A DNA stretch of 64,000 nucleotides from Actinomycetota bacterium (lineage in GTDB: Bacteria; Actinomycetota; Actinomycetes; Streptosporangiales; Streptosporangiaceae), in NCBI GenBank assembly GCA_027313705.1, contig DAHVDE010000075.1, forward strand, positions 1 through 64,000, in the 5' to 3' direction. The position numbers were made by a program, and so were the translations under genes. Of the stretch, positions 11,677 to 34,000 are shown piece after piece. The notes under the pieces were generated by a model. That model made no database searches, was not told where the DNA came from, and saw nothing but the letters and a program-made list of their open reading frames with translations. How positions within the stretch are numbered: position 1 is the stretch's first letter; each line of letters starts with the position of its first letter.

Positions 11677-13263
11677 TCAGCGGACAAAGAGCTGGGTCGC
11701 GGCATCGTGCGCGAGCCTCAGCAACGGCTCGGGCACGATGCCGAGCACCAGCGTTGCCAGGGCGCCGATCGCCACCGCACTCGTCGTGAACACGCTTGGC
11801 CGCACCACGACAGGTCCGTCGGCTGGCGGGTCGCTGAAGAACATGAGCACGATCACCCGGACGTAGGGGAAGGCCAGGATCGCGCTGCTGATCGCGCCGA
11901 CCACGACGAGCGGAACGGCGCCACCGCCGATCGCGGCCTGGAACACCGCGAACTTGCCTATGAAGCCGCTGGTCAGCGGTATCCCGGCAAAGGCGATAAG
12001 AAACAGTGCGAAGACGCCGGCGACGAGCGGCGAGCGGCGGCCGAGCCCGGCCCAGCTCGACAGGTGATCGGCCTCACCGGCCGGGTTCCGCACCAGCGTC
12101 ACCACCGCGAAGGCGCCGATGGTCGCGAAGCCATAGGCAGCGAGATAGAAGAGGCTGCTGGAAAGCCCCGCCGTGGTAGCCGCGATGACACCGGTCAGGA
12201 TGTACCCGGCCTGCGCGATCGATGAGTAGGCAAGCAGTCGCTTCACGTCGGTCTGGGTGATCGCGATGATCGACCCGCCGAGCATGGTCACGATAGCCAC
12301 CGCCCACATAGCCGGCCGCCAGTCCCAGGTGAGCTGGCCGAACGCGACGTAGAACACCCGCAGCAGCGCGCCGAACGCGGCGACCAGTGTGCATGAGGCC
12401 ATCAGCGCGGTCACCGGCGTCGGCGCACCCTGATAGACGTCTGGCTTCCAGGCCTGGAAGGGCACCGCTCCGATCTTGAACAGCAGGCCGACACCGAGCA
12501 GCGCGATCCCGGCATAGAGCAAGACGGCATTGCCGGTATTACCGCTCGCGGCGGCGGCGATCGCGGCCAGGTTAACTGAGCCGGAGAAGCCATAGAGCAT
12601 GGCGACGCCGAACAAGAAAAACGCCGAGGAAAAGGCACCGAGCAGGAAGTACTTCATCGCTGCTTCCTGCGAGAGCAGCCTGCGCCGCCTGGCCAGGCCG
12701 CAGAGCAGGTAAAGCGGCAGCGAAAGCACCTCGAGCGCGACGAACATGGTAAGCAGGTCGTTCGAAGCAGGGAACAGCAGCATGCCGCCGACCGCGAACA
12801 GCGTGAGCGGGTACACCTCCGTATGACTGATACCGGCGACGAGGCCTTCGCGTTCCTCCGCGCTGCCAGGCACCGCCGCCGCCTGCGCCGCGAACGCGCT
12901 GACCTCGTGGGAGGATTCCGCGATCAGTAGCACGCTGACGAACGCGAGCACCAAGATCGTGCCCTGGATGAACAGCGTCGGCCGGTCAACGCCGACCGCG
13001 CCTTCGGCCGCGATCCGGCCAGCGGCACCGCCGCCGAACACCGAACTGTCCACGGCCACGGCGATGGTCAGTACGAACGCTCCGGCCAGGCCGCCGAGGG
13101 TGAGGGCCAAGTGGAAGCTGCGGCGCAGCGCGCGCGGCGCGAACGCCTCGACAAGCACCCCGGCTACGGCGGCACCGAAGACGAGCAGCATCGGCGAGAG
13201 CAGCCCGTATTCGATATGGGGGGTAGGAATGACCGGCGCGATCGCGCCGACATACGCGGTCAC
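11677..13263 (-). CDS. nuoN: NADH-quinone oxidoreductase subunit N
   Basis: NuoN is one of three antiporter-like proton-channel subunits of complex I. I start it at GTG 13263, which overlaps the nuoM TGA by four bases (GTGA); the longer open frame to 13548 is antisense-like and has no family character. The 528-residue product is almost wholly transmembrane, with the antiporter-family signatures EVLSLPLYLLCG and MKYFLLGAFSSAFFLFG, a QAWKPDVYQGAPTPVTA segment in the discontinuous helix region, and LLAYSSIAQAGY. It closes the nuo operon. Confidence 0.93.
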   Translation of the reverse strand: MTAYVGAIAPVIPTPHIEYGLLSPMLLVFGAAVAGVLVEAFAPRALRRSFHLALTLGGLAGAFVLTIAVAVDSSVFGGGAAGRIAAEGAVGVDRPTLFIQGTILVLAFVSVLLIAESSHEVSAFAAQAAAVPGSAEEREGLVAGISHTEVYPLTLFAVGGMLLFPASNDLLTMFVALEVLSLPLYLLCGLARRRRLLSQEAAMKYFLLGAFSSAFFLFGVAMLYGFSGSVNLAAIAAAASGNTGNAVLLYAGIALLGVGLLFKIGAVPFQAWKPDVYQGAPTPVTALMASCTLVAAFGALLRVFYVAFGQLTWDWRPAMWAVAIVTMLGGSIIAITQTDVKRLLAYSSIAQAGYILTGVIAATTAGLSSSLFYLAAYGFATIGAFAVVTLVRNPAGEADHLSSWAGLGRRSPLVAGVFALFLIAFAGIPLTSGFIGKFAVFQAAIGGGAVPLVVVGAISSAILAFPYVRVIVLMFFSDPPADGPVVVRPSVFTTSAVAIGALATLVLGIVPEPLLRLAHDAATQLFVR

Positions 13264-14906
13264 GGGTTGCTCCCGTTCTGGGTCGAGGAAGAGGTTGCCG
13301 AAGAGAGCCCGGTCACCACGAACCTGTTGTTGACCGGGTGAGGTGGCACCGGGTTGGCAGAATGCGCGTCGACCAAGGTCGCGCGCACGGCCGGGTTGAT
13401 CACGTCGATGATCGGCTTGGGATAGACGCCGAGCACGATGATCAGTGCGATCAGCGGGCCGACGGCCCACAGTTCGCGTGCCTTCAGGTCGGGCATCGAG
13501 GCGACCTCGGGCTTCACCGGGCCGGTCATGGTCCGCTGGTACATCCACAGGATGTAGATGGCGGCCAGGATGATGCCCGCGGTGGCCAGGATCGCGGCGG
13601 CCTCGTACCTGGTGAAGGTGCCGACGAGCACGAGGAACTCGCTGACGAAGGTGGACAGGCCAGGCAGGGCGAGACCGGCCAGGCCCGCGATCAGGAACAA
13701 CCCGGCAAGCACCGGCGCCACCTTCTGCACGCCGCCGTAGTCGGCGATCTGCGCGGAGCGCCGCCGCGAGATCATGAATCCGGCGATCAGGAAGAGCGCC
13801 CCGGTCGCGAAGCCGTGGTTGACCATGTAGAGGGTGGCGCCGACCTGGCCCTGGCTGGTCATGGCGAAGATGCCGAGCGTGATCAGGCCCATGTGCGATA
13901 CCGAGGTATAGGCGACCAGGCGTTTCAGGTCGGCCTGCCCGATCGCCACGATCGCGCCGTACAAGACGCCGATCACGGAAAGCGCGATGATCAGCGGCGT
14001 GAAGTAATGAGCGGCGGAGGGGAACAGGTCAAGGCAGTACCTGATCATCCCGAAGGTGCCCACCTTGTCGAGCACGCCGACCAGCACTACCGCCGCGCCT
14101 GGCTGCGCCGCGGTCGCGGCGTCTGGCAGCCAGGTGTGGAACGGCCAGAGCGGCGCCTTGATCGCGAAGGCGACGAAGAACCCGAGGAACAGCCACTTCT
14201 GCACCGTCGCGCTCAGCACCAGGTGCGTGAGCGGCAGGAACAAGAACGTGCCAGGCCGGCCGCCCGAGGTCGAGTAGACATAGAGCGCGATGACCGCGAC
14301 CAGCATGAGCAACCCGCCAAGCAGGCTGTAGAGCAGGAACTTTACCGCCGCGTACTGGCGCTGGCCGACACCGTAGCTGCCGATCATGAAGTACATCGGG
14401 ATCAGCATGGCCTCGAAGAACACGTAGAACAGGAAGACATCGGTGGCCGCGAAGACCCCGATCATCATCGTCTCGAGTACCAGCATCAAGATGAAGTAGG
14501 TCTTGATGCTGCGCCGCGGTGGCGCCGAGCCAACCGGGTTGCCCGCTCCTTCCGCGTCGTTCCAGGAGGCGAGCACGACGACCGGCATCAGCACCGTCGT
14601 CATCAAGATCAGGACCAGCGCGATGCCGTCCACGCCTACCGCGTAGTGCACGCCGAACTGCGGTATCCACTGGTAGGTCTGCGTGAACTGAAAGCGCGGT
14701 CCGCCTATCTTGAACTGCACCGCCATCGCGACCGTGATGGCCAGCGTGATCACGCTGAAGACCAGCGCGATGCGCTTGACGAGCAGGTCGCGGGCGCGGC
14801 GGTCGGCCGGGCCGCCGGGAGCGGACTGACCGGGAGTCAGGCCGATCGCGATCGCGCCGACCAGCGGTACCACGCCGGCGACGGTGAGCCAGGGGAAATT
14901 GCTCAT
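13260..14906 (-). CDS. nuoM: NADH-quinone oxidoreductase subunit M
   Basis: A 548-residue antiporter-like membrane subunit of complex I. Recognisable segments include GVDGIALVLILMTTVLMP, FYVFFEAMLIPMYFMIG (with the key membrane Glu), KAPLWPFHTWLPDA with its functional Lys/His, and KRLVAYTSVSHMGLITLG. Its start ATG 14906 is 25 bases after the nuoL stop and its stop overlaps the nuoN start. A polar C-terminal tail of about 40 residues follows the last helix. Confidence 0.95.
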   Translation of the reverse strand: MSNFPWLTVAGVVPLVGAIAIGLTPGQSAPGGPADRRARDLLVKRIALVFSVITLAITVAMAVQFKIGGPRFQFTQTYQWIPQFGVHYAVGVDGIALVLILMTTVLMPVVVLASWNDAEGAGNPVGSAPPRRSIKTYFILMLVLETMMIGVFAATDVFLFYVFFEAMLIPMYFMIGSYGVGQRQYAAVKFLLYSLLGGLLMLVAVIALYVYSTSGGRPGTFLFLPLTHLVLSATVQKWLFLGFFVAFAIKAPLWPFHTWLPDAATAAQPGAAVVLVGVLDKVGTFGMIRYCLDLFPSAAHYFTPLIIALSVIGVLYGAIVAIGQADLKRLVAYTSVSHMGLITLGIFAMTSQGQVGATLYMVNHGFATGALFLIAGFMISRRRSAQIADYGGVQKVAPVLAGLFLIAGLAGLALPGLSTFVSEFLVLVGTFTRYEAAAILATAGIILAAIYILWMYQRTMTGPVKPEVASMPDLKARELWAVGPLIALIIVLGVYPKPIIDVINPAVRATLVDAHSANPVPPHPVNNRFVVTGLSSATSSSTQNGSNP

Positions 14907-14931
14907 GGAAATATCAGCGCCTCACCGGAAC

Positions 14932-16887
14932 TTAGAGCTTTACCAGCAGCAGAGCACCGATAACGAGCACGGCGCCGATCAGCATGGACAGGGCATACGA
15001 GCGGACGAATCCGGTCTGGACCTTGCGTATCCGTCCCGAGCTTCCGCCCATCGCGGCGGCGACGCTTCGCACCAGGCCGTCGATGCCCTGATTGTCGAAG
15101 TACACCGAGAGCCTGGTCATCCAGGACCCAGGGCGCATCAGCAGCGACTCGTTGAGCGCGTCACCGTAGAGATCCTTGCGGGCCGCCCCCGTGACCAGGC
15201 TGCCGCGCGGCGCGGTGACCGGGACGTCGCGCCTTCCGTAGATCAGCCAGGCCACCGCCGCTCCGGCGATGACAAGCACCAGCGAGGCGATGCTGATCAG
15301 GCTGAAGAAGCCGTGCGAAAGCGGCGGCGTGCCGACGACCGGGGCCAGGAAGTCGATGAGCCGGTTGGCGAGCATCAAGAAGGCGCCCGCGCCGAGCGAG
15401 CCGATCGCCAGGATCACCATCGGCGAGGTCATGATCGGCGGTGCCTCATGCGGGTGCGCGTGGTCGTCCCAGCGCCGCTTGCCGGTAAAGGTCATCAGCA
15501 TGACCCTGGTCATGTAGAACGCGGTAATGCCCGCACCGATCAGCGCAGCGGTGCCGAGGATCGCGCCTGAGGTGCCGCCCTTGGCAAAGGCCGCGTCGAT
15601 GATGGGGTCCTTGGTGAAGAAGCCGGAGAACGGCGGGATGCCGATAATGGCCAGATAGCCGAAACCGAACGTCACGAAAGTGATCTTCATGGCCGAAGCC
15701 AGGCCGCCGAACCTGCGCATGTCTACTTCGTCGTTCATCTCATGCTTGACCGCCCCGGCGCCGAGGAACAGCCCGGCCTTGAAGAATCCGTGCGCGAGCA
15801 GGTGCGCGATCGCCAGCGCGTAGCCGACCGGGCCAAGCCCCGCAGCCAGCATCATGTAGCCGATCTGGCTCATGGTCGAGCCGGCTAGTGCCTTTTTGAT
15901 GTCGTCCTTCGCGCACCCGATGACGGCGCCGAAAAGCAAGGTGGCTGCGCCGACGATCGCGACGACCAGCCTGGCGTCGGGTGACAGGTTGAAGATCGGC
16001 GCCGACCTGACGATCAGGTACACGCCCGCCGTCACCATCGTCGCCGCGTGGATAAGCGCGGAAACCGGGGTCGGACCCTCCATCGCGTCAAGCAGCCATG
16101 ACTGCAGCGGCAACTGGGCCGACTTGCCGCAGGCGCCGAGCAGCAGCAAGAGCCCGATCGCGGTAATCGTGCCAGGCCGAGCCGAGTGCACCTGGCTGAA
16201 GACGCCGTCGAAGCTCACCGAGCCGAACTGGGCGAACATCAGCATGATCGCCAGCGAGAGCCCGACGTCACCGACCCGGTTCGCGATGAAGGCCTTCTTG
16301 GCCGCCACCGGGGGTGCCGGGTTGTAGAACCAGAATCCGATCAGCAAGTAAGACGCCAGGCCCACGCCTTCCCAGCCCGCGTACAGGGCCAGGTAGTTGT
16401 CGGCGATGACCAGCAGCAGCATCGAGGCGATGAACAGGTTCAGGTAACCGAAGAACCGGCGCCGGTCAGGGTCAGCGGCCATGTAGCCGACGGCGTAGAT
16501 GTGAATGAGCGATCCGACACCGGTGATCAGCAGCACGAAGCAGATGGAAAGCTGGTCGATCCTGATGCCGAGCGGCACCGCGAACCGGCCGATCGCCGGA
16601 ATCCAGGTGAATACCCGCAAGTCAAGGCCGCGCTTGCTGGCCGGGAGGCCGAGCAGCTGCACGAAGAGCGCGACACCGTAGCCAAAGGCCGCCAGTGACA
16701 TCGCGACACCGAGCCAGTGCCCCCACTTGTTGGTGCGCTTGCCGCCAAGCAGCAGGACCAGTGCGCCGAACCCCGGGAACGCCAGCAGCAGCCAGGCCGC
16801 GTGCGCCGCGCCGGTCGCGGGCAGCGTCGTCAGCGCCGTGGCTTGCGGGGCCAGCGTGGCCGCAAGGGAGCCAGTCACTGCTACCAC
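14932..16887 (-). CDS. nuoL: NADH-quinone oxidoreductase subunit L
   Basis: The largest membrane subunit of complex I (651 residues), distal proton channel with the long lateral helix. It shows [52 protein letters not shown] (with the channel Glu), a [19 protein letters not shown] type segment with the Lys/Ser pair, and a hydrophobic C-terminus. GTG 16887 gives an N-terminus [17 protein letters not shown] 16878 three codons later is equally possible. There is a 49-base gap from nuoK, the longest within the operon. Confidence 0.95.
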
Positions 16888-16936
16888 TCCAATACTCAGT
16901 TCGTCGTCGCCCGGTGCCTGATGAGCACGGAGACGG

Positions 16937-17239
16937 TTAGTACTTAAGCAAATTGGCGTCGTCCACCGACGCCGACTTACGGGTGCGGAAGATCGATGTC
17001 AGGATCGCCAGGCCGACCACCACTTCTGCGGCCGCGACGACCATGACGAAGAAAGCGATGACCTGACCGTCGAGGTTCCCGTGCAGCCTTGAGAAGGCGA
17101 TGAACGACAGGTTGACGGCGTTGAGCATCAACTCGACGCTCATGAACACGACGAGCGCGTTCCTGCGGATCAGCACGCCTACGCCGCCGATCACGAACAA
17201 GATCGCGGCGAGCGCGATGTAATGCGCCGGGCTAATCAC
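16937..17239 (-). CDS. nuoK: NADH-quinone oxidoreductase subunit K
   Basis: A 100-residue membrane protein with three transmembrane helices, the normal NuoK size. [15 protein letters not shown] carries the conserved membrane Glu of helix 2, and [14 protein letters not shown] carries the Glu of helix 3; both are part of the central proton path. ATG 17239 overlaps the nuoJ stop by four bases. Confidence 0.96.
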
Positions 17240-18081
17240 AGCTTCTCCTGGTTCAGCTCGTCGCGGTCGGCCGGCTGCTCGCCGGCGTCAGGCTCGGCCT
17301 CGATCACCTCGACCGGCGCGCCAGGCTCGATCAGCTCGGTGATGGCGATCCCTGTCCTGCCCGCCTCCCTGGTCGCGAGCACCCCGCTGACCGAGAGCCG
17401 CGACGCGCTGCCGTCAGGCAGCAAGGCAGGCATGTCGACCGCGTTGTGCCTGGCATAGGTGCCAGGGCCAGGCAGCGGCGCCGGGTGACCGCTCGCCACT
17501 CGCTGCCTGGACAACATTCGCTGGGTCGGCTTGGGGCTGGTCCGCTCGCGATGGGCGAGCACCATCGCGCCGAGCGCCGCCGTGATCAGCAAGGCGCTGG
17601 TGACCTCGAAAGGAAAGACGTACCTGGTGAAGATCAAGGCGGCCAGGTCGTTCACGTTGGCCGAGCTGTTACGTGGACCAGAAGGCGCGGCCGGGCCGAT
17701 CGCCGCGTGCCCGACCACGAGGATCAGCAGTACGAGCAGCGCTATTCCGGCGAGCGCGGCCCAGAACCGCTGGCCCTTGATCGTCTCGATGATCGAGTCG
17801 GCCGAGCTGATGCCGACGATCATCATCACGAAGAGGAACAGCATGAGCACCGCGCCGGTGTAAACGATCACCTGCACGAACGCGAGGAAGGGCGCGCCCT
17901 GCATCGCGTACATGGCCGCGAGGACGAGCATGACCACGGCGAGCAGCACCGCGCAATGCACGGCCCGCCTGGTGAAGATCATGCCGAGCGCGGCACCGAC
18001 CGCGACAATGGCCAGAATCCACCACGTCGCAAGTTCGGTGAAGTCGCTGCCTGGCGACGCCAGCAGGAGCGAATGACTCAC
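17236..18081 (-). CDS. nuoJ: NADH-quinone oxidoreductase subunit J
   Basis: GTG 18081 is chosen because it overlaps the nuoI TGA (GTGA) and gives [20 protein letters not shown], whereas the longer frame to 18381 is antisense-like. The 281-residue product has the five-helix NuoJ core ([40 protein letters not shown] with the pi-bulge helix) within the first 170 residues. A long polar tail of about 100 residues with Pro and Glu follows, as in other actinobacterial NuoJ. Confidence 0.94.
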
Positions 18082-18674
18082 TGGTCGTCTCCCGTCCGAG
18101 CCCAGTCGTGGACAGTGCCTTCGCTGACCATGGAGCCAAGCATGTCTTCCTCGACTGCCTGAGCGGCGGCGAACGTCGGACCCTGCCGGTAGTAGTCCTC
18201 TTCGTCCTTGCCGAGCCGCATCGGGTGCGGCGGTGCTTCCATGCCCTGCCGCAGGGGCGCGAGCAGTTGCTCCTTGGTCCAGATCAAGCTTTCCCTGTTG
18301 TCGTCGGCAAGCTCGTAGTCGTTGGTCATGGTCAGTGCCCTGGTCGGGCACGCCTCCACGCACAGCCCGCACAAGATGCACCGCAGGTAGTTGATCTGGT
18401 AGACAGCACCGTACCGCTCACCCGGCGAGTACCGCTCCTGGTCGGTGTTGCTGCCGCCCTCGACATAGATGGCGTCGGCCGGGCACGCCCAGGCGCAAAG
18501 CTCACAGCCGATGCACTTCTCCAGGCCGTCCGGCCAGCGGTTGAGCTGGTGCCTTCCGTGGAACCTGGGCGCGGTCGGCAGTTTTTCTTCCGGGTACTGA
18601 ACGGTGTCTACCTGCTTGAACATCTGCCTGAAGGTGACCGCGAAACCCTTGACCGGGTTAAGGAAGTCAAGCAC
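18078..18674 (-). CDS. nuoI: NADH-quinone oxidoreductase subunit I
   Basis: NuoI carries two [4Fe-4S] clusters (N6a/N6b) in the peripheral arm. From GTG 18674 the product has 198 residues: Cys54-x2-Cys57-x2-Cys60-x3-Cys64 ([11 protein letters not shown]) and Cys99-x2-Cys102-x2-Cys105-x3-Cys109 ([11 protein letters not shown]). The start overlaps nuoH by 8 bases and yields the family N-terminus [15 protein letters not shown]; the longer frame to 18803 is discarded because it lies inside nuoH. Confidence 0.96.
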
Positions 18675-20049
18675 CGGTGACCTCCGATACCGTCGCTTGC
18701 CTGGTATCTCGGCCAGCCGAGGCCAGTTCGCCGAGCACCGCGCCTTCGGCGGCAATGCCGTGGTAGTGCGGCAGGTCCATCGGCGGGACCGGGAAGGTCT
18801 CACCGATCTTCCCGGTGAACTCGGCCTCTGCGGCGGCCCGCTGCTCGGCCCTGCGCTCTGCGGTCAGGTCGGTGGCGAACAGCCAGACGAGCACTCCGGC
18901 TATCACCAGGCCGCCGATGATGTACACGACCGCCCCGCCACCTTGCCTGCGGTAGACGCGCAGCGTCGCGATCAGCAGCGTCCAGGCCAGCGCGGCGGGA
19001 ATCAGGATCTTCCATCCGAAGGCCATCAGCTGGTCGTACCTGATCCGCGGCAGCGAACCCCGCAGCCAGATGAAGAAGAACAGCAAGGCGCCGACCTTGA
19101 CGAGGAACCACAGCACCGGCCACCAGCCGTGGTTAGCGCCCGACCACACCGAGATCGGCCAGACCGCGTGCCAGCCGCCGAGGAACAGCGTCGTGGCCAG
19201 CGCCGCGACCGTCGTCATGTTCACGTATTCAGCCAGGTAAAACAGCGCGAACTTGAGCGAGGAATATTCGGTGTGGTAACCGGCGACGAGTTCGCCTTCG
19301 CCTTCTGGCAGGTCGAAAGGCAGCCGGTTAGTCTCGCCGACCATGGTGATGATGTAAATGACAAAGGACGGGAGCAGCAAGATAGCGAACCACGAGGGGT
19401 AATGCAGCACGGCGCCGAACCACTTGAAGGTGGCGCCATTCGCCTGTGCGTGGACGATCTGCGCCGTCGAAAGCGAACCGGCGTAGAGGAAGACCGGCAC
19501 GAAGGACAGTCCCATGGCGATCTCGTAGCTGATGACCTGCGCCGAGGAGCGCAGCCCGCCGAGCAGTGCGTAAGGCGAGGTCGACGACCAGCCGGCCAGC
19601 ACGATCCCGTAGACGCCCATCGAGCTCATTGCGAGCACGAGCAGCACGGCGACCGGAAGGTTGGCAAGCTGAAGCGGCGTGTGGTGGCCGGCAATCGAGA
19701 CGGTCGGTCCCCAGGGGATGATCGCGAAGCTCACGAAGGCCGGGATCGAGGCCAGCGCGGGGGCGATTATGAACAGCACCTTGTCGACGCCGCGAGGAAT
19801 GATGTCTTCCTTGAGCGGCAGCTTGATGCCGTCCATCAGGGACTGAAGCAGGCCGAACTTGCCCGCCCGGTTCGGGCCAGGCCGCTGCTGCATCCGGCCG
19901 ATGACCCTGCGCTCGGCCCAGATCATGAACAGCGTGCTCAGCATCAGGAAGGCGAAGACGATGATCACCTTGAGCGCGGTCAGCCACCACGGATCATTGT
20001 CGATCAAAGCGGAAGTAGCGGCGCTGGCGCCACCAGATGCCAGGATCAT
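18667..20049 (-). CDS. nuoH: NADH-quinone oxidoreductase subunit H
   Basis: The 460-residue membrane subunit that forms the quinone chamber at the junction of both arms. It shows [19 protein letters not shown], the cytoplasmic loop with [13 protein letters not shown], and the Glu-rich quinone-site loop [21 protein letters not shown] cytoplasmic C-terminal extension of about 70 residues ([14 protein letters not shown] onward) is longer than in enterobacteria. ATG 20049 overlaps the nuoG stop by four bases. Confidence 0.96.
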
Positions 20050-22478
20050 TCCGCGCTCCTCAAGGTCACTAGGGTGCCATGACCGGCACCGAGCTGACTT
20101 CGCACGGCGCAGCCGGCGGAGTTAGTTGGCAGCCAGACCACCCGGTCAGGCATGACCGTGATCTTGACAGGCACCGTGATGGCACCCTGGCCGGTGCTCA
20201 CCGTTATCTTGGCCCCGTCGCTGACTCCGGATTCAGCGGCCGTGAACGCCGACATCCGCGCTACGGCGGCCCTGGCGGTTCCGGCCAGGTGCGGTTCGCC
20301 GTCTTGCATTCGGCCTGCGTCGAGGAGATTATGCCAGGTCGCGAGCAACGCCTGGCCAGGGGTCGGATTGAGGGGCGACACCGCCGAGTACACACCGCTG
20401 CCGCTCGCGGTTGCCTGGGTACCCGCGCCGAGCTCGGCCAGTTCCCGGCGAGCGGCGGCGGCATCTGGCAGGCCGAAGTGCACGTCCATGGCGTCGGCGA
20501 GGCCAGCGAGCACGTTGAGATCGGTCATCGCGCCCGGCCTGCTCAGTGCGGCGCCGAACTCGCCTGGCCTGCCTTCCCAGTTCACGAACGTGCCCTGCTT
20601 CTCGAGCGCAGAGACGATTGGGAAGACTACGTCGGCTCGGTCGGTGACGGCACTTGCTCGCAGTTCGATGCTGACCACGAAGCCAGCTTGCTCGATCGCC
20701 GCCAGCGCGGCGGCAGGATCGGGCAGGTCAGCGGGGTCAACTCCGGCGACTACCATGGCCTCGAGCTCGCCCGCGCCGACCGCGGCTAGCATGCCCGCAG
20801 TATCCCTGCCCGGCGCGTCAGGCAGCGAGTTCACGTTCCACGCCCTGGCCACTTCCGCCCGCGCGACCTCGTCGGCTACCAGCCGCCCGCCGGGCAGCAA
20901 GCCGGGCAGTGCCCCGGCCTCGATGGCACCGCGCTCGCCTGCCCTGCGGGGCATCCAGGCCAGCTTCGCGCCGGTAAGGTCGGCGAGCCTGGCCGCCGCC
21001 GACAGCGCGCCAGGCACCTCGGCAAGTCGCTCGCCGACGCAGATCACGGCTCCTTCGGCGCGGAGCGCCTCAGCGGCGATCCTGGTGACCTCGTCCGCGA
21101 TCGCCGCCGGATCCGCTGCCAGCAGGTCGAGCCGAGCCGCCTCGCCGCCAGGCGGCGTGGGCAGCAAGGTTCCTGACATCCTGGTCAGGCCGCTGGTCGC
21201 GAAGGAGGCAACCGAGAAGACCCTGGTGCCGCGCCTGCGCGCCGCCTTGCGCAGCCGCAGGAACACGATCGGCGATTCGTCTTCAGGTTCGAATCCCGCG
21301 AGCAGCACGGCCGGGGCCTGCTCAAGCGTCTGGTAGCTGACTCCTGAGTGCTGGCCGGCGACCCTGGTGGCGAGGAACGTGCTCTCCTCGGCGCTGTGCG
21401 GCCTGGCCCGCATGTCTATGTCATTGCCGTGCAGTGCCACCCTGGCGAATTTCGCGTAAGCGTAGGCGTCTTCGACCGTGAGCCGACCGCCGGTCAGCAC
21501 CCCCGCGCGACCACGGGCGGCGAGCAGTCCGCGTGCCGCGGCGTCGAGCGCCTCTGGCCAGGACGCCGGGTTGAGCACTCCGGCCTCGTCCCTGACCAGC
21601 GGCGCGACCAGGCGGTCAGGCGCGCTGGCGTAAGTGAAGGCCCAGCGGCCCTTATCGCAGTTCCACTCCTCGTTCACCTCCGGCGCGTTGCCCGCCAGCC
21701 TGCGGGTCACCGCGTTCCTGCGGTGGTCGGTGCGCAACTGGCAGCCCGAGGCGCAGTGCTCGCAGACGGCGGGCGTCGAAACGGTGTCGAACGGCCTGGC
21801 CCTGAACCGGTATGAGGAGCTGGTGAGCGCGCCGACCGGGCAGATCTGGATCGTGTTGCCAGAGAAATACGAGTCGAAAGGCACGCCTTCCGCCACACCG
21901 ACCTGCTCTTGCGCTCCGCGTTCGATGAGGTCGATCAGCGGCTCGCCGGCCACCTGGTCGGCGAACCTGGTGCACCTGGCGCACTGCACGCAGCGCTCAC
22001 GGTCGAGCAGCACCTGGGCGGAAAGCGCGATCGGCTTGGCGAACTTGCGCTTGGTGCCGGTGAACCTGGTCTCGCCCTGGCCGTTCGACATGGCCTGGTT
22101 CTGCAGCGGGCACTCGCCGCCCTTGTCGCACATCGGGCAGTCGAGCGGATGGTTGACCAGCAGCATCTCCATGATGCCGCGCTGCGCCTTCTCGGCCACC
22201 GGCGAGGTCATCTGGGTGCGGACGACCATGCCGTCCGTGCAGACCGTGGTGCAGGAAGCCGGCGGTTTCGGCTGGCCTTCCACCTGGACCAGGCACTGGC
22301 GGCAGGCACCGATCGGCTCGAGCAGCGGGTGGTCGCAAAAACGCGGGACCTGAATGCCGAGCATCTCGGCGGCCCTGATGATCAGCGTCCCCTTGGGCAC
22401 GGTGATCTCGAAGCCGTCGATGCTCACGTGGACGCCCTCGACGAGGGCGGGCACCGCGGGCATGGGGGATACCGTCAT
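20046..22478 (-). CDS. nuoG: NADH-quinone oxidoreductase subunit G
   Basis: The large iron-sulfur subunit. I prefer ATG 22478 (810 residues) to ATG 22490 because it forms the ATGA overlap with the nuoF stop and has GGAG about 8 bases upstream. The N-terminal ferredoxin domain has [15 protein letters not shown] with a following CTTVC for the [2Fe-2S] cluster; then [20 protein letters not shown] and CPVG for [4Fe-4S] clusters, and CEHCASGC for the extra N7-type cluster. The rest is a molybdopterin-oxidoreductase-like domain that no longer binds the cofactor in this family. Confidence 0.95.
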
Positions 22479-23785
22479 CGGGATCTCCATGATTCGCTGA
22501 AGGTCGTGGCCGCGGCTGGGTCGAACGGGCAGGCGCCGCGCTTGACATGCTCGATGTACTCGTCCCTGAAGTACTTGATTGACGAGACGATCGGGCTGAT
22601 CGCGCCGTCACCGAACGGGCAGAACGACCGGCCGAGTATGTTGTCGCAGATGTCGAGCAACTTGTCCAGGTCGGCGGCGCTGCCCTGGCCGTTCTCAAGC
22701 GAGTCGAGCACCTGCACCGTCCAGTAGGTGCCCTCGCGGCAAGGGGTGCACTTGCCGCACGACTCGTGCTTATAGAACTGCATCCAGCGCAGCACTGCCC
22801 TGACCACGCAGGTCGTCTCGTCGAAGATCTGGAGCGCCCTGGTGCCAAGCATGGACCCCGCCGCGCCGATACCCTCGAAATCGAGCGGGGTGTCCAGATG
22901 CTCGTGCGTGAGGATCGGCGTCGAGGAACCGCCAGGGGTCCAGAACTTCAGCATGTGGCCGCGGCGCACTCCGCCCGCGATGGAGAGCAGTTCCCTTAGC
23001 GTGACGCCGAGCGGTGCCTCGTACTGACCTGGTGTCGTGACGTGCCCGGACAGCGAGAAGATGCCGAAACCCTTGGACCTTTCCGTGCCGAGCGCGGCAA
23101 AGGCGGCGGCACCGTTCTTGATGATGGCCGGCACGCTGGCGATCGACTCGACGTTATTGACGACGGTCGGGCAGGCGTACAAACCCTCGATCGCGGGGAA
23201 GGGCGGCTTGAGCCTTGGCTGGCCGCGCTTTCCTTCGAGCGAGTCAAGCAGCGCGGTCTCCTCGCCGCACTCATACGCCCCCGCCCCGGCGTGCACCACC
23301 AAGTCAAGGTCGAAACCAGAGCCGAGAATGTCAGGACCCAGGTAGCCCGCGTCGTACGCTTCAGCCACGGCATGGTGCAGGCGCCTGATCACGTGCAGCA
23401 CCTCGCCGCGCACGTAGATGAAGGCTTTGTTCGCCCGGATCGCGTAAGCGGCGATGACGGCGCCCTCGACGAGCGCATGCGGGTTGGCCAGCATGGTCGG
23501 GATGTCCTTGCAGGTGCCTGGCTCAGACTCGTCGGCGTTGATCACGAGGTAGTGCGGCTTGTTGTCACCCTGCGGTATGAAACCCCACTTCATCCCGGTA
23601 GGGAAGCCTGCACCGCCCCGGCCGCGCAGGCCGGACTCCTTAACCGCCGCGATGACGGCGTCCGGCTGCATGGCAAGCGCCCTTGGCAGGGCCTGATAGC
23701 CGCCCGCCCGGCGGTAGCCGGCCAGTGTGAACGAGTCGGCCTCGTCCCAGTGGGCAGTCAGTTCAGGGGTGAGCACCGTACTCAA
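22475..23785 (-). CDS. nuoF: NADH-quinone oxidoreductase subunit F
   Basis: The NADH- and FMN-binding subunit (436 residues), where electrons enter complex I. The NADH/FMN loop [13 protein letters not shown] is at 55-67, the acidic segment [13 protein letters not shown] follows, and the [4Fe-4S] N3 cluster motif [15 protein letters not shown] lies near residue 350 with the distant fourth Cys in [15 protein letters not shown]. Start ATG 23785 overlaps nuoE by four bases. Confidence 0.96.
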
Positions 23786-24459
23786 TGCTGTGCTCCATCG
23801 TTCGATCCGTTGTCGGGCTGCCAGCCGTTCTCTTTAGCTATGCGCAGCCCGGCTAGCGTCGGGCCACCGGCCGTATTACCGGTGGCCGCCTGGTCATCGG
23901 GGAAGCCGGCCAGGATCATGGCGGCTTCGCGCCAGTTGACCAGCCGCTCGGCACCCCGGCTCGGCGCCCGGCAGTCGCCAGAGCGCAACCCGTCGACCAG
24001 TTCCCTGGTCGAATCGGGCGTCATGTTGTCGTAGAACTCCCAGTTGACCATGACGACGGGAGCGTAGTCACAGCCCGCGTTGCACTCTATTCGCTCGATG
24101 CTCACCTTGCCGTCCGCAGTAGGCTCGTCGGCGTCGACGCCCAGGTGGTCACGCAACCCGGCGTAGATCGCGTCGCCGCCCATGATCGCGCACAGCGTGT
24201 TGGTGCAGACACCCACGTGGTACTCGCCGACCGGTGACCGCTTGTACATCGTGTAGAACGACACCACGGCCGTCACGTCGGCCTCGGTCAGGCCAAGCTG
24301 CTCGGCGCAATAGGCGATGCCGTCGTTGGACACATAGCCTTCGCGCGACTGCACCAGATGCAGCAGCGGGAGCAGCGCCGACCTGGACACCGGATACCTG
24401 GCAATGATCTGCCCGGCCTGCCCGGCCAGTTCAGCCTTGTCCTGCTCGGAATAGGCCAT
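23782..24459 (-). CDS. nuoE: NADH-quinone oxidoreductase subunit E
   Basis: The thioredoxin-like [2Fe-2S] N1a subunit. The cluster ligands Cys85, Cys90 (VCTNTLC), Cys126 and Cys130 (ECNAGC) are all present in a 225-residue product. The C-terminal 50 residues are a polar extension (DDQAATGNTAGG) beyond the usual 165-180 residue core, as seen in other actinobacteria. Its ATG overlaps the nuoD TAA by one base (TAATG). Confidence 0.95.
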   Translation of the reverse strand: MAYSEQDKAELAGQAGQIIARYPVSRSALLPLLHLVQSREGYVSNDGIAYCAEQLGLTEADVTAVVSFYTMYKRSPVGEYHVGVCTNTLCAIMGGDAIYAGLRDHLGVDADEPTADGKVSIERIECNAGCDYAPVVMVNWEFYDNMTPDSTRELVDGLRSGDCRAPSRGAERLVNWREAAMILAGFPDDQAATGNTAGGPTLAGLRIAKENGWQPDNGSNDGAQH

Positions 24460-25787
24460 TACCGATCCACCCCTCCCATCACGGGGTCAATGCTGGCGAC
24501 GGCCGCGATCACGTCCGCCACCAGGCCGCCCTCGCACATCGCGGACACCGATTGCAGGTTCGTGAAGGACGGGTCGCGGAAATGCACCCGGTGCGGCCTG
24601 GTGCCGCCGTCGCTTACCGCGTGACAGCCAAGTTCGCCGCGTGGTGACTCCACGCTCGCGTAGACCTGCCCGGCCGGCACCCGAAAGCCCTCGGTGACCA
24701 GCTTGAAGTGATGGATCAGCGCCTCCATCGACTGGCTCATGATGTGCGCGATGTGGTCGGCGGAGTTCCCCATGCCGTCGGGGCCGACGGCGAGCTGAGC
24801 CGGCCAGCCGATCTTGGCGTTGCCTATCATCACCGGGTCGTGCACCGGGCGCTTGGCGGCGAGCCGGTCGGTGCACTGCTCGATGATCCGCAGCGACTGG
24901 TCGATCTCGTCCATCCGCACCAGGTACCTGGCGTAGACGTCGGCGCCATCTTGGGTGCAGATGTCGAAGTCGTAGGTCTCGTAGCCGCAGTAAGGCTGGC
25001 TCTTGCGCAGGTCCCACGGCAGGCCGGCGGAACGCAGGATCGGCCCGGTGATCCCGAGCGACATGCAGCCGGCCAGGTCGAGGTAGGCGACGTCGCGGGT
25101 GCGGCGCAGGTAGATCGGGTTCACGTCGAGCAGCTTGCGCAGTTCGTCGAGCTGCCCTGGCATGATGGCGAGGAAGTCGCGCAGCTTCTCGATCGCGCCA
25201 GGAGGCAGGTCCTGAGCGACTCCGCCGGGCCTGATGTAGGCGTGGTTCATCCGCAAGCCGCTGATCAGCTCGAACAGGTCGAGCACCTTCTCGCGCTCGC
25301 GCAGGCCGTAGAGGAAGACGGTGGTCGCGCCGAGTTCCATCCCGAACGTGCCGACCGCCATCAGGTGCGAGGAGATCCGGTTGAGCTCCATCATGAGGAC
25401 ACGCAGGACGCTGGCGCGGACCGGGACCTGATCGGTGATGCCGAGCAGCTTCTCCACCGCCAGGCAGTAAGCAGTCTCGTTGAACAGCGGCGACAGGTAG
25501 TCCATCCTGGTGCAGAAGGTGACCCCCTGCGTCCAGGTGCGGAACTCCATGTTCTTCTCGATACCGGTGTGCAGGTACCCGATCACCGGCCGGATCTCGG
25601 TTACGGTCTCGCCGTCGAGGGTCAGCACCAGCCTGAGCACGCCATGTGTTGACGGGTGCTGCGGTCCCATGTTGACGATGAGGCGCTCATCTGAGCCCTC
25701 GTCGCGCAAGTCATCGGCGGCGGCGATAACTTCATCCCAGTCCTGGCCGCCGACATTGTAAACGCGGCCCTCGGTTGTGCTGGTCAT
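24459..25787 (-). CDS. nuoD: NADH-quinone oxidoreductase subunit D
   Basis: The 49-kDa-type subunit that, with NuoB, forms the quinone-binding site near cluster N2 (442 residues). Clear family segments are [22 protein letters not shown] with the quinone-site His, [17 protein letters not shown], and [20 protein letters not shown] near the C-terminus. ATG 25787 overlaps the nuoC stop by four bases. Confidence 0.96.
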
Positions 25788-26524
25788 TCGTATGACCTCC
25801 GCTCGTCGGGCGGCGGGACGGTGGCGCCGCGGTACTCCACTGGAATGCCGCCGAGCGGGTAATCCTTGCGCTGCGGATGGCCTTTCCAGTCGTCCGGCAT
25901 CTCGATCCTGGTCAGGGCCGGGTGCCCGTCAAAGATGATGCCAAAGAAATCCCAGGTCTCCCGCTCGTGCCAGTCACAGGTGGGATAGACCGCGGTGACC
26001 GAGGGAATGTGCGGATCGGCGTCAGGCGCGGAAACCTCGAGCCGCAGCCGCCGGTTATGTGTAATGGAAAGCAGGTGATATACGGCGTGCAACTCGCTGC
26101 CAGCGAACTTGGGGTAGTGCACCCCGCCGACTCCCAGGCATAGCTGGAACGCCAGGTGCGGGTCGTCGCGCAGGCGCCGGCAGACCTCGACCAGGTAATC
26201 GCGCCGCACATGCAGCGTTAGTTCCCCGTTTGCCACCACGACCCGCTCGACGGCGGTACCGAAGTTCAGGCCGGACGCTTCGAGCGCGCTGCCGAGCGCG
26301 TCGGCTACCTCGTCGAAATAGGAGCCGTAAGGGCGCGCTGACGAGGGCAGCGGCTGCTGCCTGACCATAAGGCCGCCATAGCCTGAGGTGTCGCCCGTGG
26401 TGTGCGTACCGAACATGCCGGTGCGGACGACAGGCTCGCTCAGTCGCTCCTCGCCTGCCTGGGCGCCGGCGTCTTCTTCCTGCTCGTCGCTGCTCGCTGA
26501 CCCTGGGTTTGGTGGCTGAGTCAC
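25784..26524 (-). CDS. nuoC: NADH-quinone oxidoreductase subunit C
   Basis: The 30-kDa-type peripheral-arm subunit (246 residues). The core from about residue 80 has [13 protein letters not shown], and the family signature [20 protein letters not shown] followed by [17 protein letters not shown]. The first 55 residues are a hydrophilic Glu/Ala-rich extension typical of actinobacterial NuoC. The start overlaps nuoB by four bases. Confidence 0.95.
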
Positions 26525-27111
26525 TTGTGCCCGCCTTCCACCCGCTCGGGCCGGCTCTCAGCTTCCGCCCGCAGGTGGGGCAGCAGCGGCAGTCGCCTTA
26601 GCCTGGCTTCCTCTAGCTCGGTGATCTCTTTCTCCCTGTTAGCGCCGAGCTTCATGTTCTGGATCTTGTCGTGCAGCTTCACGATCGCGTCGAGCAGCAT
26701 CTCTGGCCGCGGCGGACAGCCTGGCAGGTAAATGTCGACGGGCACAATGTGGTCAACGCCCTGCACGATCGCATAGTTGTTGAACATGCCGCCGCTCGAG
26801 GCGCAGACGCCCATCGAGATGACCCACTTCGGTTCTGACATCTGGTCATAGATCTGCCTGAGGACGGGCGCCATCTTCTGGCTCACCCGGCCGGCCACGA
26901 TCATGAGGTCAGCCTGGCGCGGCGTATTCGACGCGCGCTCCATGCCGAACCTGGCCAGGTCGTGCCTCGGACCGCCGGTCGCCATCAGCTCAATCGCACA
27001 GCAAGCCAGGCCGAAGGTCGCCGGCCAGACAGAAACCTTGCGGGCGTAGCCGGCCAGTTTCTCTACCGTGGTAAGCAGGACGCCGCTAGGCAGCTTCTCT
27101 TCAATTCCCAT
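26521..27111 (-). CDS. nuoB: NADH-quinone oxidoreductase subunit B
   Basis: The subunit holding the terminal [4Fe-4S] cluster N2 (196 residues). The four ligands are Cys37 and Cys38 (the tandem pair in [13 protein letters not shown]), Cys103 ([11 protein letters not shown]) and Cys132 (LPGCPPRPE). A short acidic/basic C-terminal tail ([16 protein letters not shown]) follows. It starts three bases after the nuoA stop. Confidence 0.97.
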
Positions 27112-27114
27112 TGA

Positions 27115-27483
27115 CTAATCCCATTCCAGACCGCCGCGCCGCCACACGTAGACGTACGCGATCAGGACGGTCGCGACGAACGTGACCATCTCTACGAGCC
27201 CGAAGGCGCCGAGGCGGTCAAAGGCGACCGCCCAGGGATACAGGAAGATGATCTCGATGTCGAAGACGATGAAAAGCATCGCCGTCAGGTAGTACTTGAC
27301 AGGGAACCTGATGCCGGCCGGCTGACGGGTAGGTTCGATACCGCACTCGTAAGACTCGAGCTTGGCGCGGTTCCACCGCTTCGGACCGCTGATCGCGCCG
27401 GCTACCAGCGAGAAGATGGCGAACAGCGCGGACAGGGCACCGAGTGCGACGACGGGAACGTAGTAGCTCACGGGCTCCGTCAC
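27115..27483 (-). CDS. nuoA: NADH-quinone oxidoreductase subunit A
   Basis: First gene of the nuo operon; 122 residues from GTG 27483, which is preceded by AAGGGG and gives the NuoA-like N-terminus TEPVSYYVPVVALG. Three transmembrane helices with the conserved loop SYECGIEPTRQPAGIRFPVKY between helices 1 and 2 and FDIEIIFLYPWAV in helix 2. The open frame continues to 27582 but that part has no family likeness. Confidence 0.95.
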   Translation of the reverse strand: MTEPVSYYVPVVALGALSALFAIFSLVAGAISGPKRWNRAKLESYECGIEPTRQPAGIRFPVKYYLTAMLFIVFDIEIIFLYPWAVAFDRLGAFGLVEMVTFVATVLIAYVYVWRRGGLEWD

Positions 27484-27616
27484 CCCCTTGTCTCGCCGCG
27501 CAGCTATCCGGCTGAGCGGCCCAATCGATCTCGGGCTGCGGATCTGGCGCTGGCCTTCGCGCCATGGATCTCGCGTCTGCAATTAGCACCTTGGGGTCCA
27601 AGGTCAGCTACGGGCG

Positions 27617-28906
27617 TTATGCCGCCGGTGCGATCTTAGACAGCGCGTTGACGACGCGGTCCACCGCATCGCCGCCGCGCGGTTCCGTGAGGTTTCCAAG
27701 CAACTTCATCGTCATCCGCATGACGGCCGGGCTCTTGATCCCGTGCCTTGTGGCGAACTTCATGAAGGATGGATTTCCGATCAGCTTCACGAATGTCCGG
27801 CCAAGAGTGTAGTAGCCGCCGTAGTTCTGCTTCAGTGCTACCGGGTAACCCTGCAGCACTCGTTCGGTTCCCGCCGCCGTGGGCCGGCCGAGTGCCTGTA
27901 CGACCGAGCGCGCGGCGAGTTCACCTGACTCCATCGCGTACGCGATGCCCTCGCCGTTGAACGGGTTCACCATACCGCCGGCGTCACCCACGAGCACCAG
28001 CCCGCGGGTGTAGTGCGGCGTGCGGTTGAACCCCATCGGCAACGCGGCACCGCGGATCGGCTCGGTTCTGTTTTCCTCGCGGAATCCCCACTCGGCTGGC
28101 ATTGCCGCCAGCCAGCGGCGCAGCAGCGACCGGTAGTCGATGTGCCCGAACGCCTCAGAGGTGTTCAGCAGGCCAAGGCCCACATTGGAGGTGCCGTCGC
28201 CCATGCCGAAGATCCAGCCGTAGCCGGGCAGCAGGTCCTTGCCATCCCAGAGGTCAAGCCAGGCTTCAAGGTAGTCGTCGTTGGTACGCGGGCTCTGGTA
28301 ATAGGTACGCACGGCCACGCCGAGCGGACGGTCGTCCCGCTTGTGCAGGCCAAGGGAAACCGACAGTCGCGATGAGTTGCCGTCGGCTGCCACCACGACC
28401 CTTGCCCGCAGGTCCGCTGGCGGCTCGGAAGCGCTATTTCCAGTGGCGCGGGCGGTGACGCCGGTTACCCGCCCGGTCCGCTCGTCGACGGTGGCACCGG
28501 TCACGGTGACGTTCTCGCGCAGCCTGACGCCTGCCTTCACCGCATGCCGGGCCAGGATCTGGTCGAAGTCGGCCCTGGTCCTGACCGTGCCGAAGCCAGG
28601 AAAGGAAGAAAGCTCCGGCCACGCCAGTTCGATCCGGCCGCCGCCGCCGACGATGCGCAGGCCCTTGTTACGCAGCCAGCCTTCGCTCTCGTCGATCGGC
28701 ACGCCCATCGTGGTCAGCGCCTTGACCGCGCGAGGGGTGAGCCCATCGCCGCAGACCTTCTCGCGCGGGAAGCTGGTCTTCTCGAGCAGCAACACGTCAA
28801 GCCCGGCGGTCGCCATGTGATATGCCGCCGCCGAGCCAGCCGGCCCGGCACCGACGACAATCACATCGGCCGTATCCGCCGAGTCACGGGGGTTCTGCAC
28901 ACTCAC
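27617..28906 (-). CDS. menJ: Geranylgeranyl-reductase family flavoprotein, probable menaquinone reductase
   Basis: An FAD-dependent oxidoreductase of 429 residues. It has the Rossmann motif VVGAGPAGSAAA (GxGxxG at 19-24), an ARVVVAADGNSSRL segment, and the second FAD motif GDAGGMVNPFNGEGIAYAME. In Mycobacterium the homologue at the same neighbourhood (MenJ) saturates one isoprene unit of menaquinone; by context that is the best guess, other polyprenyl reductions being the alternative. I prefer GTG 28906 over TTG 28909 because an AAGGGGA ribosome site then lies at a better distance. It is followed by nuoA after 133 bases on the same strand and preceded by a Rex operator. Confidence 0.85.
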   Translation of the reverse strand: MSVQNPRDSADTADVIVVGAGPAGSAAAYHMATAGLDVLLLEKTSFPREKVCGDGLTPRAVKALTTMGVPIDESEGWLRNKGLRIVGGGGRIELAWPELSSFPGFGTVRTRADFDQILARHAVKAGVRLRENVTVTGATVDERTGRVTGVTARATGNSASEPPADLRARVVVAADGNSSRLSVSLGLHKRDDRPLGVAVRTYYQSPRTNDDYLEAWLDLWDGKDLLPGYGWIFGMGDGTSNVGLGLLNTSEAFGHIDYRSLLRRWLAAMPAEWGFREENRTEPIRGAALPMGFNRTPHYTRGLVLVGDAGGMVNPFNGEGIAYAMESGELAARSVVQALGRPTAAGTERVLQGYPVALKQNYGGYYTLGRTFVKLIGNPSFMKFATRHGIKSPAVMRMTMKLLGNLTEPRGGDAVDRVVNALSKIAPAA

Positions 28907-28917
28907 CAACTTTTCCC

Positions 28918-28937
28918 CTTGTGAACGCCTTCACAAG
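28918..28937. promoter_or_regulatory. Rex (redox-sensing repressor) operator upstream of menJ-nuo
   Basis: The sequence CTTGTGAACGCCTTCACAAG is a perfect 8-bp inverted repeat (28918-28925 and 28930-28937) with a 4-base spacer and matches the Rex operator pattern TTGTGAA-N4-TTCACAA exactly. Rex releases DNA when NADH/NAD+ rises and is known to control nuo and cyd genes in Streptomyces. On the minus strand a TAGACT -10-like hexamer lies at 28956-28951, so Rex bound here would sit over the early transcribed region and block menJ and, by read-through, nuoA-N. Confidence 0.85.
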
Positions 28938-28991
28938 TACAGACGCCCATAGTCTAACCCCTGCATCCGCGCCGCATCCGGCCCCCGTCCG

Positions 28992-29699
28992 CTACCCTCG
29001 CGGCGCCGGTCGCCTGGCGACATGAACGGCGACGATACCCGCGGTCAGGTTCCGCCAGGACACCCTGGACCAGCCGGCCGCCGCGATGCGGTCGGCGAGC
29101 TGCCGCTGGGCGGGCCAGTCCTTGATCGACTCAGCCAGGTAGGCATAGGCGCTCGCATTTCGTGACACGATGCGGGCGACCGCAGGCAGCGCGGCGGCCA
29201 GGTAGCGCTGGTACACGGCGTCGAGCGGCCTGGCCGGCAGATGGCTGAACTCGCAAATCACCAGCCGGCCACCTGGCCTGGTGACCCTGCGCAACTCGGC
29301 GAGCGCGCGATCGGGTTCCGCCACGTTGCGCAGCCCGAACGAGATCGTCACCACGTCGAACGCCTCGTCGGCAAACGGCAGGTCAACCGCGTCGCCGGCC
29401 ACGAAACGCACTCGCTCGGCCGGCTTGCGCGCGCCAGAGCGGAGCATTCCGAGCGAGAAATCGCAGGCCACGCACCGGGCGCCGGCCTTGGTGAAGGCAC
29501 GGGACGAGGTTCCTGTGCCCGCCGCCAGGTCAAGCACCAGATCGTCAGGCCCGGCCGCAACCAGCTTGGCGACGACGTTGCGCCAGCGCCGGTCAAGGCC
29601 CGCTGACAGCACGTCGTTCATCAGGTCATACCGCTCGGCGACCTCGTCGAACATGGCCGATACGTCGGCCGGTGCCTTGTCAAGCTGCGCGCGCGTCAT
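28992..29699 (-). CDS. menG: Demethylmenaquinone methyltransferase
   Basis: UbiE/MenG-type C-methyltransferase that uses S-adenosylmethionine for the last step of menaquinone synthesis. From ATG 29699 the product has 235 residues: [20 protein letters not shown] is the family start, VLDLAAGTG (55-63) is SAM motif [14 protein letters not shown] and [12 protein letters not shown] are further signatures. GTG/ATG further upstream (29720) would add seven residues. It is 82 bases upstream of menJ on the same strand, and the Rex site lies in that gap. Confidence 0.92.
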
Positions 29700-29746
29700 G
29701 AGTCCAAGCGTGGCACACACCCGCCAGGCAGCTCACCTCCGCCAGC

Positions 29747-31039: not shown

Positions 31040-34000
31040 TTGAGCAGCGCACGCCGACACCCCGCGCCTGCGGCGGTCCGGGTCTTCGCCAGCATCGCCC
31101 TCGGCGCGGTGAGCTTGAACGCTGGCGCGATTGGCCATGCGCTAGACAAGATCGCCCACGAGCCGGCCAAGCTGGCGGCGCGCTCTTCGGCCCAGGTGCT
31201 GTACGCGTACGCCACTGGCTCCGCCGTAGATTCATCGAAGTGCCCGTCGACAACGCGCCGAGCCGATAGGTGCAACTTGGTGCAGGCGCTTCGCAGAGTC
31301 CGCCCCGGAGGGACAATCCTGCTGGCTACCGCCGGGCGGGTCGTTAGCTATTCAGGCAACTTCACGGTGGCCACGCCGCACACATCAGCCCGCTTGCCCG
31401 TGACCATCAAGCCGGCGCCGCGGGTGCGCGGTCCTGTGCTCGATGGCGACGGCTCCGACAAGGTGCGATGCCCGATGGCGGCATGTGACGGAGCCGTGCT
31501 GACGGTTCGGGCCGGCGTCGTCGCGCGGATCGAGTCGATCACGATTCGCGATGGGCGCAATGCCATTTCCAGTGCTGGTGGCGGCGGCATTAATGATCTA
31601 GGCACCGTCAGCCTTGTCGGAGTCGACATAACCGACTGCATCGCTTACGTAGGCGGTGCTGTGGCAGTCGGCACCGGCGCTCATCTCACGGTCGAGAACT
31701 CTTCGTTCACGAAAGACCAAGCGACCTATTTCGGCGGTGCCATCGGTAACGGCACGACCATAGCCGGGCACGCGGCTAACGGCCAGCTTAAGGTCTCCCG
31801 CTCGACGTTCTCCCGCGACAGCGCTCCGCGCGGCGGCGCGATCAGTAACGGCGATGGCGGCGTTGGAGAGCTGACCGTTTTTAATTCGACATTTACCTAC
31901 GACAGTGCGGCAAGACGCGGCGGCGCCATCGACAACGGCGACGGCGGGACCGGATCAGCATCGGTCGCCGGTTCGACCTTCGCCTATGACAATGCACCGA
32001 TCGGCGGTGCCATCAACAATGCTGACTCGCTCGGCACAGGCACGCTCAGCGTGGAGACATCGACGTTCTATCGAGACCGCGCGGCGATGAGAGGCGCGGC
32101 TCTCAGTAACGGCTTCGGTACAGGCAGGGGCTCAGCGCTGATCTTGAATACGACGGTGGCCGATAGTTCAGGAAGGACGGCCATCAATGTGACAAGCGGC
32201 ACCGTCCAGGTCGCCGGCAGCATAATTGCGGCGTCGGCAGAGGCGAACTGCGCGGGTCACGTCACTGATGACGGCTACAACCTCGAGGATGACACTGCGG
32301 CGCGCTGTGGTTTCAGCAAGGGCCAGCACGACATCGTGGGCAAGAATCCGCGCCTCGGCCCGCTGGCGAGCAATGGCGGACCTACCCAGACCATGAAGCC
32401 GCAGCCGACCAGCCCGGTACTGTATCAGATCCCCTACCCTGCGCTGGCTTATCTCGAGCCTAGCGGTAAGGCCATCGCCCTGTGCCCGGTCACCGACCAG
32501 CGCGGCGATGGCAAGGAGTACGACCACCTTGGCTGCTCGCTCGGTTCAGTCGACACCACAGGAAACGTTCCGGTGATAACGTCGCTCGGCACGACAGCCG
32601 GACCAGCCGCTGGCCGAGCCGTAGTGATCATCCATGGCGGGAACTTCGGGGCTGGACTGACCGTCAGGTTCGGTTCCGCCGCCGCGCGCAAGGTAACTGT
32701 GGTGTCGAAGACCGAGATCACCGTTGTCAGCCCCGCATTCGCCGGGCTAGACGGCTCGGGCACGGTCGCCGTCACGGCCACCAGCGCCTCAGGCCTGAGC
32801 AGCCCGGCCCGGATAACCGATCTGTACACCTATTACTCGGCTGACTGGTCGGCCTATCTCAACGGAAGCATGCACTCGTCCTATAATCCGGGTGCTACAT
32901 CGATCACGCCCAGCCATATGGCTAACCTCCAACCTATCTGGCAGTTGCAGGCGCCGCCCGCGCCGAACGACGGGAATGTGAACGACTACGCCAGCCCGAT
33001 CGTGTCGAATGGCGTCGTCTACGTCGGTCTTGAGGATGGCGATATGTACGCACTCAGCGAAATGACCGGCGCGGTCATCTGGAGCCATAATCTCGGGATC
33101 GAGGAGGCCAATACCTGTACTGGCCCATGGGGCATCACATCCACGGCGACCGTGGCTAACAGCCCGGGGCCGGGCACTGGCACACCGACCGTTTACGTAA
33201 ACGCGCCCGACGGCTACCTGTACGCACTCAACGCCGCGACAGGTCAGACTCAATGGCGTTCTGTCGTCGGCATTCCCCCGTCGGGCACAGACAGCTATTA
33301 CGCATGGGGATCGCCTACAGTCGCCAACGGCAAGGTCTATATCGGGATCGCTTCCAACTGCGACAACCCGCTAGTACCTGGAGGGGTGCTCGAATTCAGT
33401 CAGCGTACCGGTGCCCTGCTCGCCCGTTGGAACTCCTTGCCGTCCGGGGATCTCGGGGGCAGCGTGTGGAGCAGCATCGCGGTACTGCCCGACGGCAACA
33501 TCGTCGCAACGACAGGTAACTCCTCCGACGTTACCCAGCAGGTACCGAACGCCGAGTCCGTCGTCGTGCTGGACGGATCCACGCTTAAGTTGCTGGACTC
33601 CTGGATGATCCCTATGACCCTGCAGATCACCGACTCTGACTTCGGCGGCTCTCCGACCGTGTTTACCGCCTATCCCGGGGGCGTCGCGACGACAATGGTC
33701 GGTGCGTGCAACAAAGACGGGGTCTACTTTGCCTTCCGGGCCGATGACCTGCACGCCGGCCCCCTTTGGGAGCATCGGATGGGCGCCCCGACAGGAACCA
33801 TGTCGAACGAGTGCGACGCAGCAGCTATCTGGAACGGCCATGACCTGATCGAAGGCGGCGGAAGCGCGATCACCATCAACGGCAAGGCTTACGCCGGGTC
33901 GGTGCAGGCACTCGATCCGACCACGGGCAAGGTAATCTGGGCGACCGGCCTGCCCGGCTGGGTGGTAGGCAGCCCGGCAGAAGACGGCGGCGGCGTAGTC

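Follow-up and report, generated by a model that had tools for sequence, protein, structure and literature searches.

The Rex operator of the nuoA1-N1 operon of Streptomyces avermitilis has been characterized by EMSA, ChIP and DNase I footprinting, and for nuoA1 the binding of Rex, its release by NADH and derepression in a rex mutant have all been demonstrated (PMC5355995). The Rex targets in this organism comprise rex-hem, wblE, atp, cyd and nuoA1-N1 (PMC5355995). With respect to gene order, the closest described locus is that of Actinomyces oris, in which ubiE, a geranylgeranyl reductase gene (ggr) and nuo are neighbours (PMC5478893). We have analyzed a stretch of 64,000 nucleotides, here called the window, in which a similar arrangement is preceded by a palindrome of the Rex type. 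An earlier sequence-only reading of this DNA had proposed that Rex, acting through this palindrome, controls menaquinone tail reduction and complex I as one unit.

The palindrome, its neighbours and the Rex regulon of the genome

On the minus strand of the window, the order is menG, operator, a gene of the geranylgeranyl reductase family, nuoA, nuoB, nuoC and onward. The features of this region are as follows:

28992..29720, minus strand: menG-type demethylmenaquinone methyltransferase gene, upstream of the operator (NF001241, 360 bits; cut-off 327)
28907..28991, minus strand: menG-menJ intergenic region with promoter, operator and ribosome-binding site, from reading of the sequence
28951..28956, minus strand: TAGACT, inferred -10 promoter box, separated by 13 nt from the 20-bp palindrome downstream of it and by 14 nt from the 18-bp core
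28918..28937, minus strand: 20-bp palindrome, predicted Rex operator (ROP), from its exact consensus match and its conservation upstream of menJ
27617..28906, minus strand: MenJ-like FAD enzyme of the geranylgeranyl reductase family, a frame of 430 codons including the stop (TIGR02032, Pfam FAD_binding_3)
27115..27483, minus strand: nuoA, first complex I gene, with a GTG start at 27483 or 27471 (NF005922 NuoA, 193 bits, cut-off 155, on 27115-27477)
11677..27111, minus strand: remaining nuo cluster, with NuoB, NuoC, NuoL, NuoM and NuoN identified from NCBIfam matches and the ORF list

Direct reading of the window sequence revealed that 28918-28937 holds the 20-base palindrome CTTGTGAACGCCTTCACAAG, with an 18-bp core TTGTGAACGCCTTCACAA at 28919-28936 that reads TTGTGAAGGCGTTCACAA on the minus strand and agrees with TTGTGAA-N4-TTCACAA at 0 mismatches. 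The exact palindrome claimed by the sequence-only reading is thus present, and its claimed position between menG and menJ, ahead of nuo, was equally borne out, with all of the neighbours on the minus strand. This core is the sole match in the window at up to 3 mismatches (shuffled sequences average 0.44 at the same laxity), and from base composition (65.5% GC) exact matches are expected at a rate of 1.7e-5 per 64 kb or 0.0014 per 5.31-Mb genome. Over the whole genome the motif occurs once exactly, twice with 1 mismatch and once with 2 mismatches.

The gene downstream of the operator starts with GTG at 28906, with AGGGGA upstream, and the nearest named relatives of its product are from metagenome-assembled Streptosporangiaceae. 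This protein passes the subfamily model TIGR02032 (270 bits vs. a cut-off of 159) but does not reach the cut-off of the MenJ equivalog NF045655 (252 bits vs. 700), and for this reason MenJ-like is the safer name; menJ is used here as a family-level name only, with a putative substrate assignment. Elsewhere in the window, on the plus strand, an ORF of 1144 aa (31040-34474) gave weak matches to PQQ-type and BamB-like beta-propeller families and to a choice-of-anchor domain.

The rex gene on which the sequence-only reading depended was found as a single copy in the genome, one ORF comprising a winged-helix domain (PF06971, 67 bits) and an NAD-binding Rossmann domain (PF02629, 68 bits), and its protein matches solved Rex structures in the PDB (5zz5, 2.8e-45). 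The genome has three remaining sites with up to 2 mismatches: one, with 1 mismatch, about 130 bp ahead of the stretch coding for the Rex HTH, adjoined by hemA (glutamyl-tRNA reductase); another 53 bp ahead of a WhiB-family gene; and a further one preceding a probable atp operon, at a small membrane protein that is probably AtpI, named by eye with no Pfam match. Since all three lie at known Streptomyces Rex targets, we count them as support for a Rex operator in the window. The cydA locus of the genome is without a Rex site, the best match there having 5 mismatches. Judged on its sequence and setting, the palindrome is a genuine Rex operator, a solid but largely expected addition to a known regulon.

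Conservation of the site and the gene that it follows

The survey sample consisted of menJ loci from 80 named records plus loci retrieved by a genome-collection search. Adjacency was defined as nuoA within 400 bp after menJ, and the site was sought, at up to 2 mismatches, in a stretch covering the 400 bp ahead of menJ and its first 60 bp. Conservation of the site before menJ in relatives, a check put forward in the sequence-only reading, held where nuoA follows: the operator was found upstream of menJ in 115 of 127 adjacent menJ-nuoA loci (reversed motif, 0) and in the menJ-nuoA gap in 2/127, counts that are not independent because the loci are related and some occur twice, once per collection (L006 looks identical to L119). 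The 115 sites comprise 66 without a mismatch, 37 with a single mismatch and 12 with two mismatches, and the genomes that bear them span ~30 families by our own count from anonymous family labels. Several genomes of family f16 (L107, L174, L176, L185) carry two tandem Rex-type sites, 30-36 bp apart, upstream of menJ.

Presence of the site was linked to presence of rex. For 110 genome loci with menJ adjoining nuoA, rex and site were both found in 99, rex without a site at up to 2 mismatches in 5, neither in 5 and a site without rex in 1 (Fisher p 1.2e-5, relatedness ignored). The five loci with neither come from four families (f24, f42, f46 and f77), while the one locus with a site and no rex belongs to a genome (G287) that is 61% complete, so that rex may have escaped assembly. 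As a separate observation, f46 loci in which rex was not found (L281-L283, L285) harbor a half-degraded operator-like TTGTGATAGCTTTCAGGG 31-45 bp before nuoA, which may be a relic after rex loss; G146, also of f46, has rex together with a 1-mismatch site.

Loci in which menJ and nuoA are separated showed which of the two genes the operator accompanies. In Streptomycetaceae, where 0.5-2.4 kb lie between menJ and nuoA, the operator stands before nuoA in 36/36 loci and before menJ in 0; a 37th separated locus, from a genome without detected rex, has the operator at neither gene. Among other rex-positive genomes with nuoA away from menJ, a site precedes nuoA in G214 (exact, 43 bp before nuoA, with no menJ near it), in G162 and G258 (one mismatch) and in G097 and G107 (two mismatches); no site at up to 2 mismatches was found before nuoA in G247, G274, G134, G050, G235 and G278. 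Conversely, menJ lacking an adjoining nuo had no site in the rex-positive genomes checked, with one possible exception (G097), and G008, which has menJ and rex and in which nuoA was not found, had no site before menJ. The separated loci keep the operator at nuoA, indicating that it follows nuo and not menJ; the predicted Rex target that is conserved is nuo, and menJ comes under control as the leading gene of the operon. In two of the four Streptomyces loci that were read (L047, L050), an opposite-strand ORF of 279-289 aa fills the menJ-nuoA interval; it has a signal-peptide-like start, looks secreted and would break the operon.

These findings divide the proposal of the sequence-only reading. 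The site, the rex gene and a probable joint menJ-nuo unit speak for it, but menaquinone tail reduction as an independent Rex target finds no support in the Streptomycetaceae operators, all of which stay at nuo, or in menJ genes standing alone without a site. Nor do we see support for a dedicated tuning of tail reduction by Rex, and regulation of tail reduction as such would exceed the evidence, because menJ is only the leader of nuo, the substrate of the enzyme is putative and Streptomycetaceae do without this arrangement.

Promoter, transcript and alternative readings

A consensus promoter scan yielded no consensus -35 and no promoter on either side of the operator; we recognized the -10 box by comparing relatives. 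In 31 loci of the Streptosporangiaceae type, TAGACT or TAAACT (once ATAGACT) precedes the operator, ending mostly 11-17 nt upstream of it. Where the available sequence reached far enough upstream, 61/90 sites have a -10-like hexamer at a distance of 2-30 nt from the operator, compared to 5 with such a hexamer at 31-54 nt. From this we infer a transcription start near 28944, relative to which the operator would span about +8 to +27.

We surmise that Rex, as an NADH/NAD+-sensing repressor, would sit on the operator when NADH is low. The -10 box is a short way upstream of the operator, whose edge touches the menJ ribosome-binding site, and bound Rex would block initiation or early elongation/clearance of the menJ-nuoA...N transcript. 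Upon a rise in NADH, e.g. in oxygen limitation, Rex would leave and complex I would be made together with the MenJ-like reductase. We hold with considerable confidence that the palindrome is a Rex operator mediating NADH-relieved repression of menJ-nuoA...N, with nuo as the conserved target and menJ as the first gene, and Rex very probably represses menJ and nuo together here.

Joint repression presupposes read-through from menJ into nuoA, which lie on the same strand in conserved order and are likely co-transcribed. The contrary reading, in which the operator controls menJ only and a separate promoter in 27484-27616 drives nuo, draws on the room for a promoter in the 133-bp gap, on an operator inside this gap in G036 and on a second, weaker operator inside it in L158. 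We consider this reading unlikely: menJ-nuoA gaps range from overlap to 320 bp and are <50 bp in 28/128 loci, including one of 27 bp in the same-genus genome L120; TA[GAT]ACT occurs in 9/92 gaps vs. upstream of 49 operators; and the operator is at nuoA when the genes are separated, pointing to nuo as what it follows. The scan also detected no promoter- or terminator-like element on the minus strand of the gap, but given that it missed the promoter before menJ as well, this silence is weak evidence.

The identity of the binding protein can be questioned too, as the core contains TGTGA-N6-TCACA, the genome encodes one Crp-type HTH protein and nuoA in the Mycobacteriaceae-like family f4 does have Crp-type palindromes. 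Control of the unit by cAMP/Crp instead of Rex is nevertheless, in our judgement, very unlikely, since conservation extends to positions dispensable for Crp, with the outer T1 and A18 kept in 112 and 115 of 115 sites and the inner A7 and T12 in 110 and 115, while the f4 sites vary at the inner positions; moreover, the Rex motif also precedes rex, and the site is missing from families without rex. Even less credible is an RNA hairpin in the menJ 5' leader in place of a protein site on DNA. A possible 7-bp stem does lie directly before the ribosome-binding site, but we rejected this idea on the grounds that the leader folds no better than shuffled sequences (z = -0.14) and that position 2/17 shows C-A 29 times but C-G just 5 times, indicating that pairing is not maintained; in addition, the nuoA1 operator bound by Rex in Streptomyces spans -42 to -16 and is not part of the transcript (PMC5355995).

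Family f4 itself presents a different picture. In its loci (L259, L264-L266, L268, L287-L313) there is no menJ near nuoA, and a Rex site lies upstream of nuoA in 1/34. TGTGA-N6-TCACA at up to 1 mismatch, often as CTGTGTCTTAGCTCACAT, was found upstream of nuoA in 23/34 (reversed motif, 0; shuffles average 0.2). In f4, even where rex is retained, a Crp-type regulator seems to have taken over nuo from Rex.

Comparison with described systems

The ubiE-ggr-nuo locus of A. oris resembles the gene order of the window, but the study in question concerns pilus assembly, and no Rex site was studied there (PMC5478893). Mycobacterial MenJ, a menaquinone tail reductase, and the window protein belong to the same FAD-dependent geranylgeranyl reductase superfamily; the Mycobacteriaceae-like homologues are 32-37% identical and do not adjoin nuoA in the loci read. 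Within the open literature, which our search covered, we found no report of a Rex-controlled menJ-nuo layout; an earlier one may exist.

With our survey, a regulon proven in Streptomyces now reaches ~30 families, and within the survey sample the published position of the nuo operator is a variant and not the rule. Tentatively, and at somewhat less than even likelihood, we postulate that Actinomycetota other than Streptomycetaceae set complex I and menaquinone-tail saturation jointly according to the NADH/NAD+ ratio, via one Rex-controlled menJ-nuo operon. Such an operon, possibly ancestral to the phylum, would have been split in Streptomycetaceae, with the operator left at nuo. This hypothesis would predict that menaquinone tail reduction rises along with complex I upon NADH build-up in most Actinomycetota with the menJ-nuo layout, but not in Streptomycetaceae. 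The locus would also provide an example of an operator shifting along an operon with its target unchanged.

The S. avermitilis nuoA1-N1 operon and the window have in common the consensus TTGTGAA-N4-TTCACAA and the target operon, and both genomes have sites at rex-hem, wblE and atp. They differ in where the operator lies: in S. avermitilis it is directly before nuoA1 and overlaps the -35 region (-42 to -16), whereas in the window it is before menJ, downstream of the -10 box, with menJ included in the unit. The footprinted nuo operators of Streptomyces are already published; the novelty lies in the menJ-first layout across the phylum and in its relocation.
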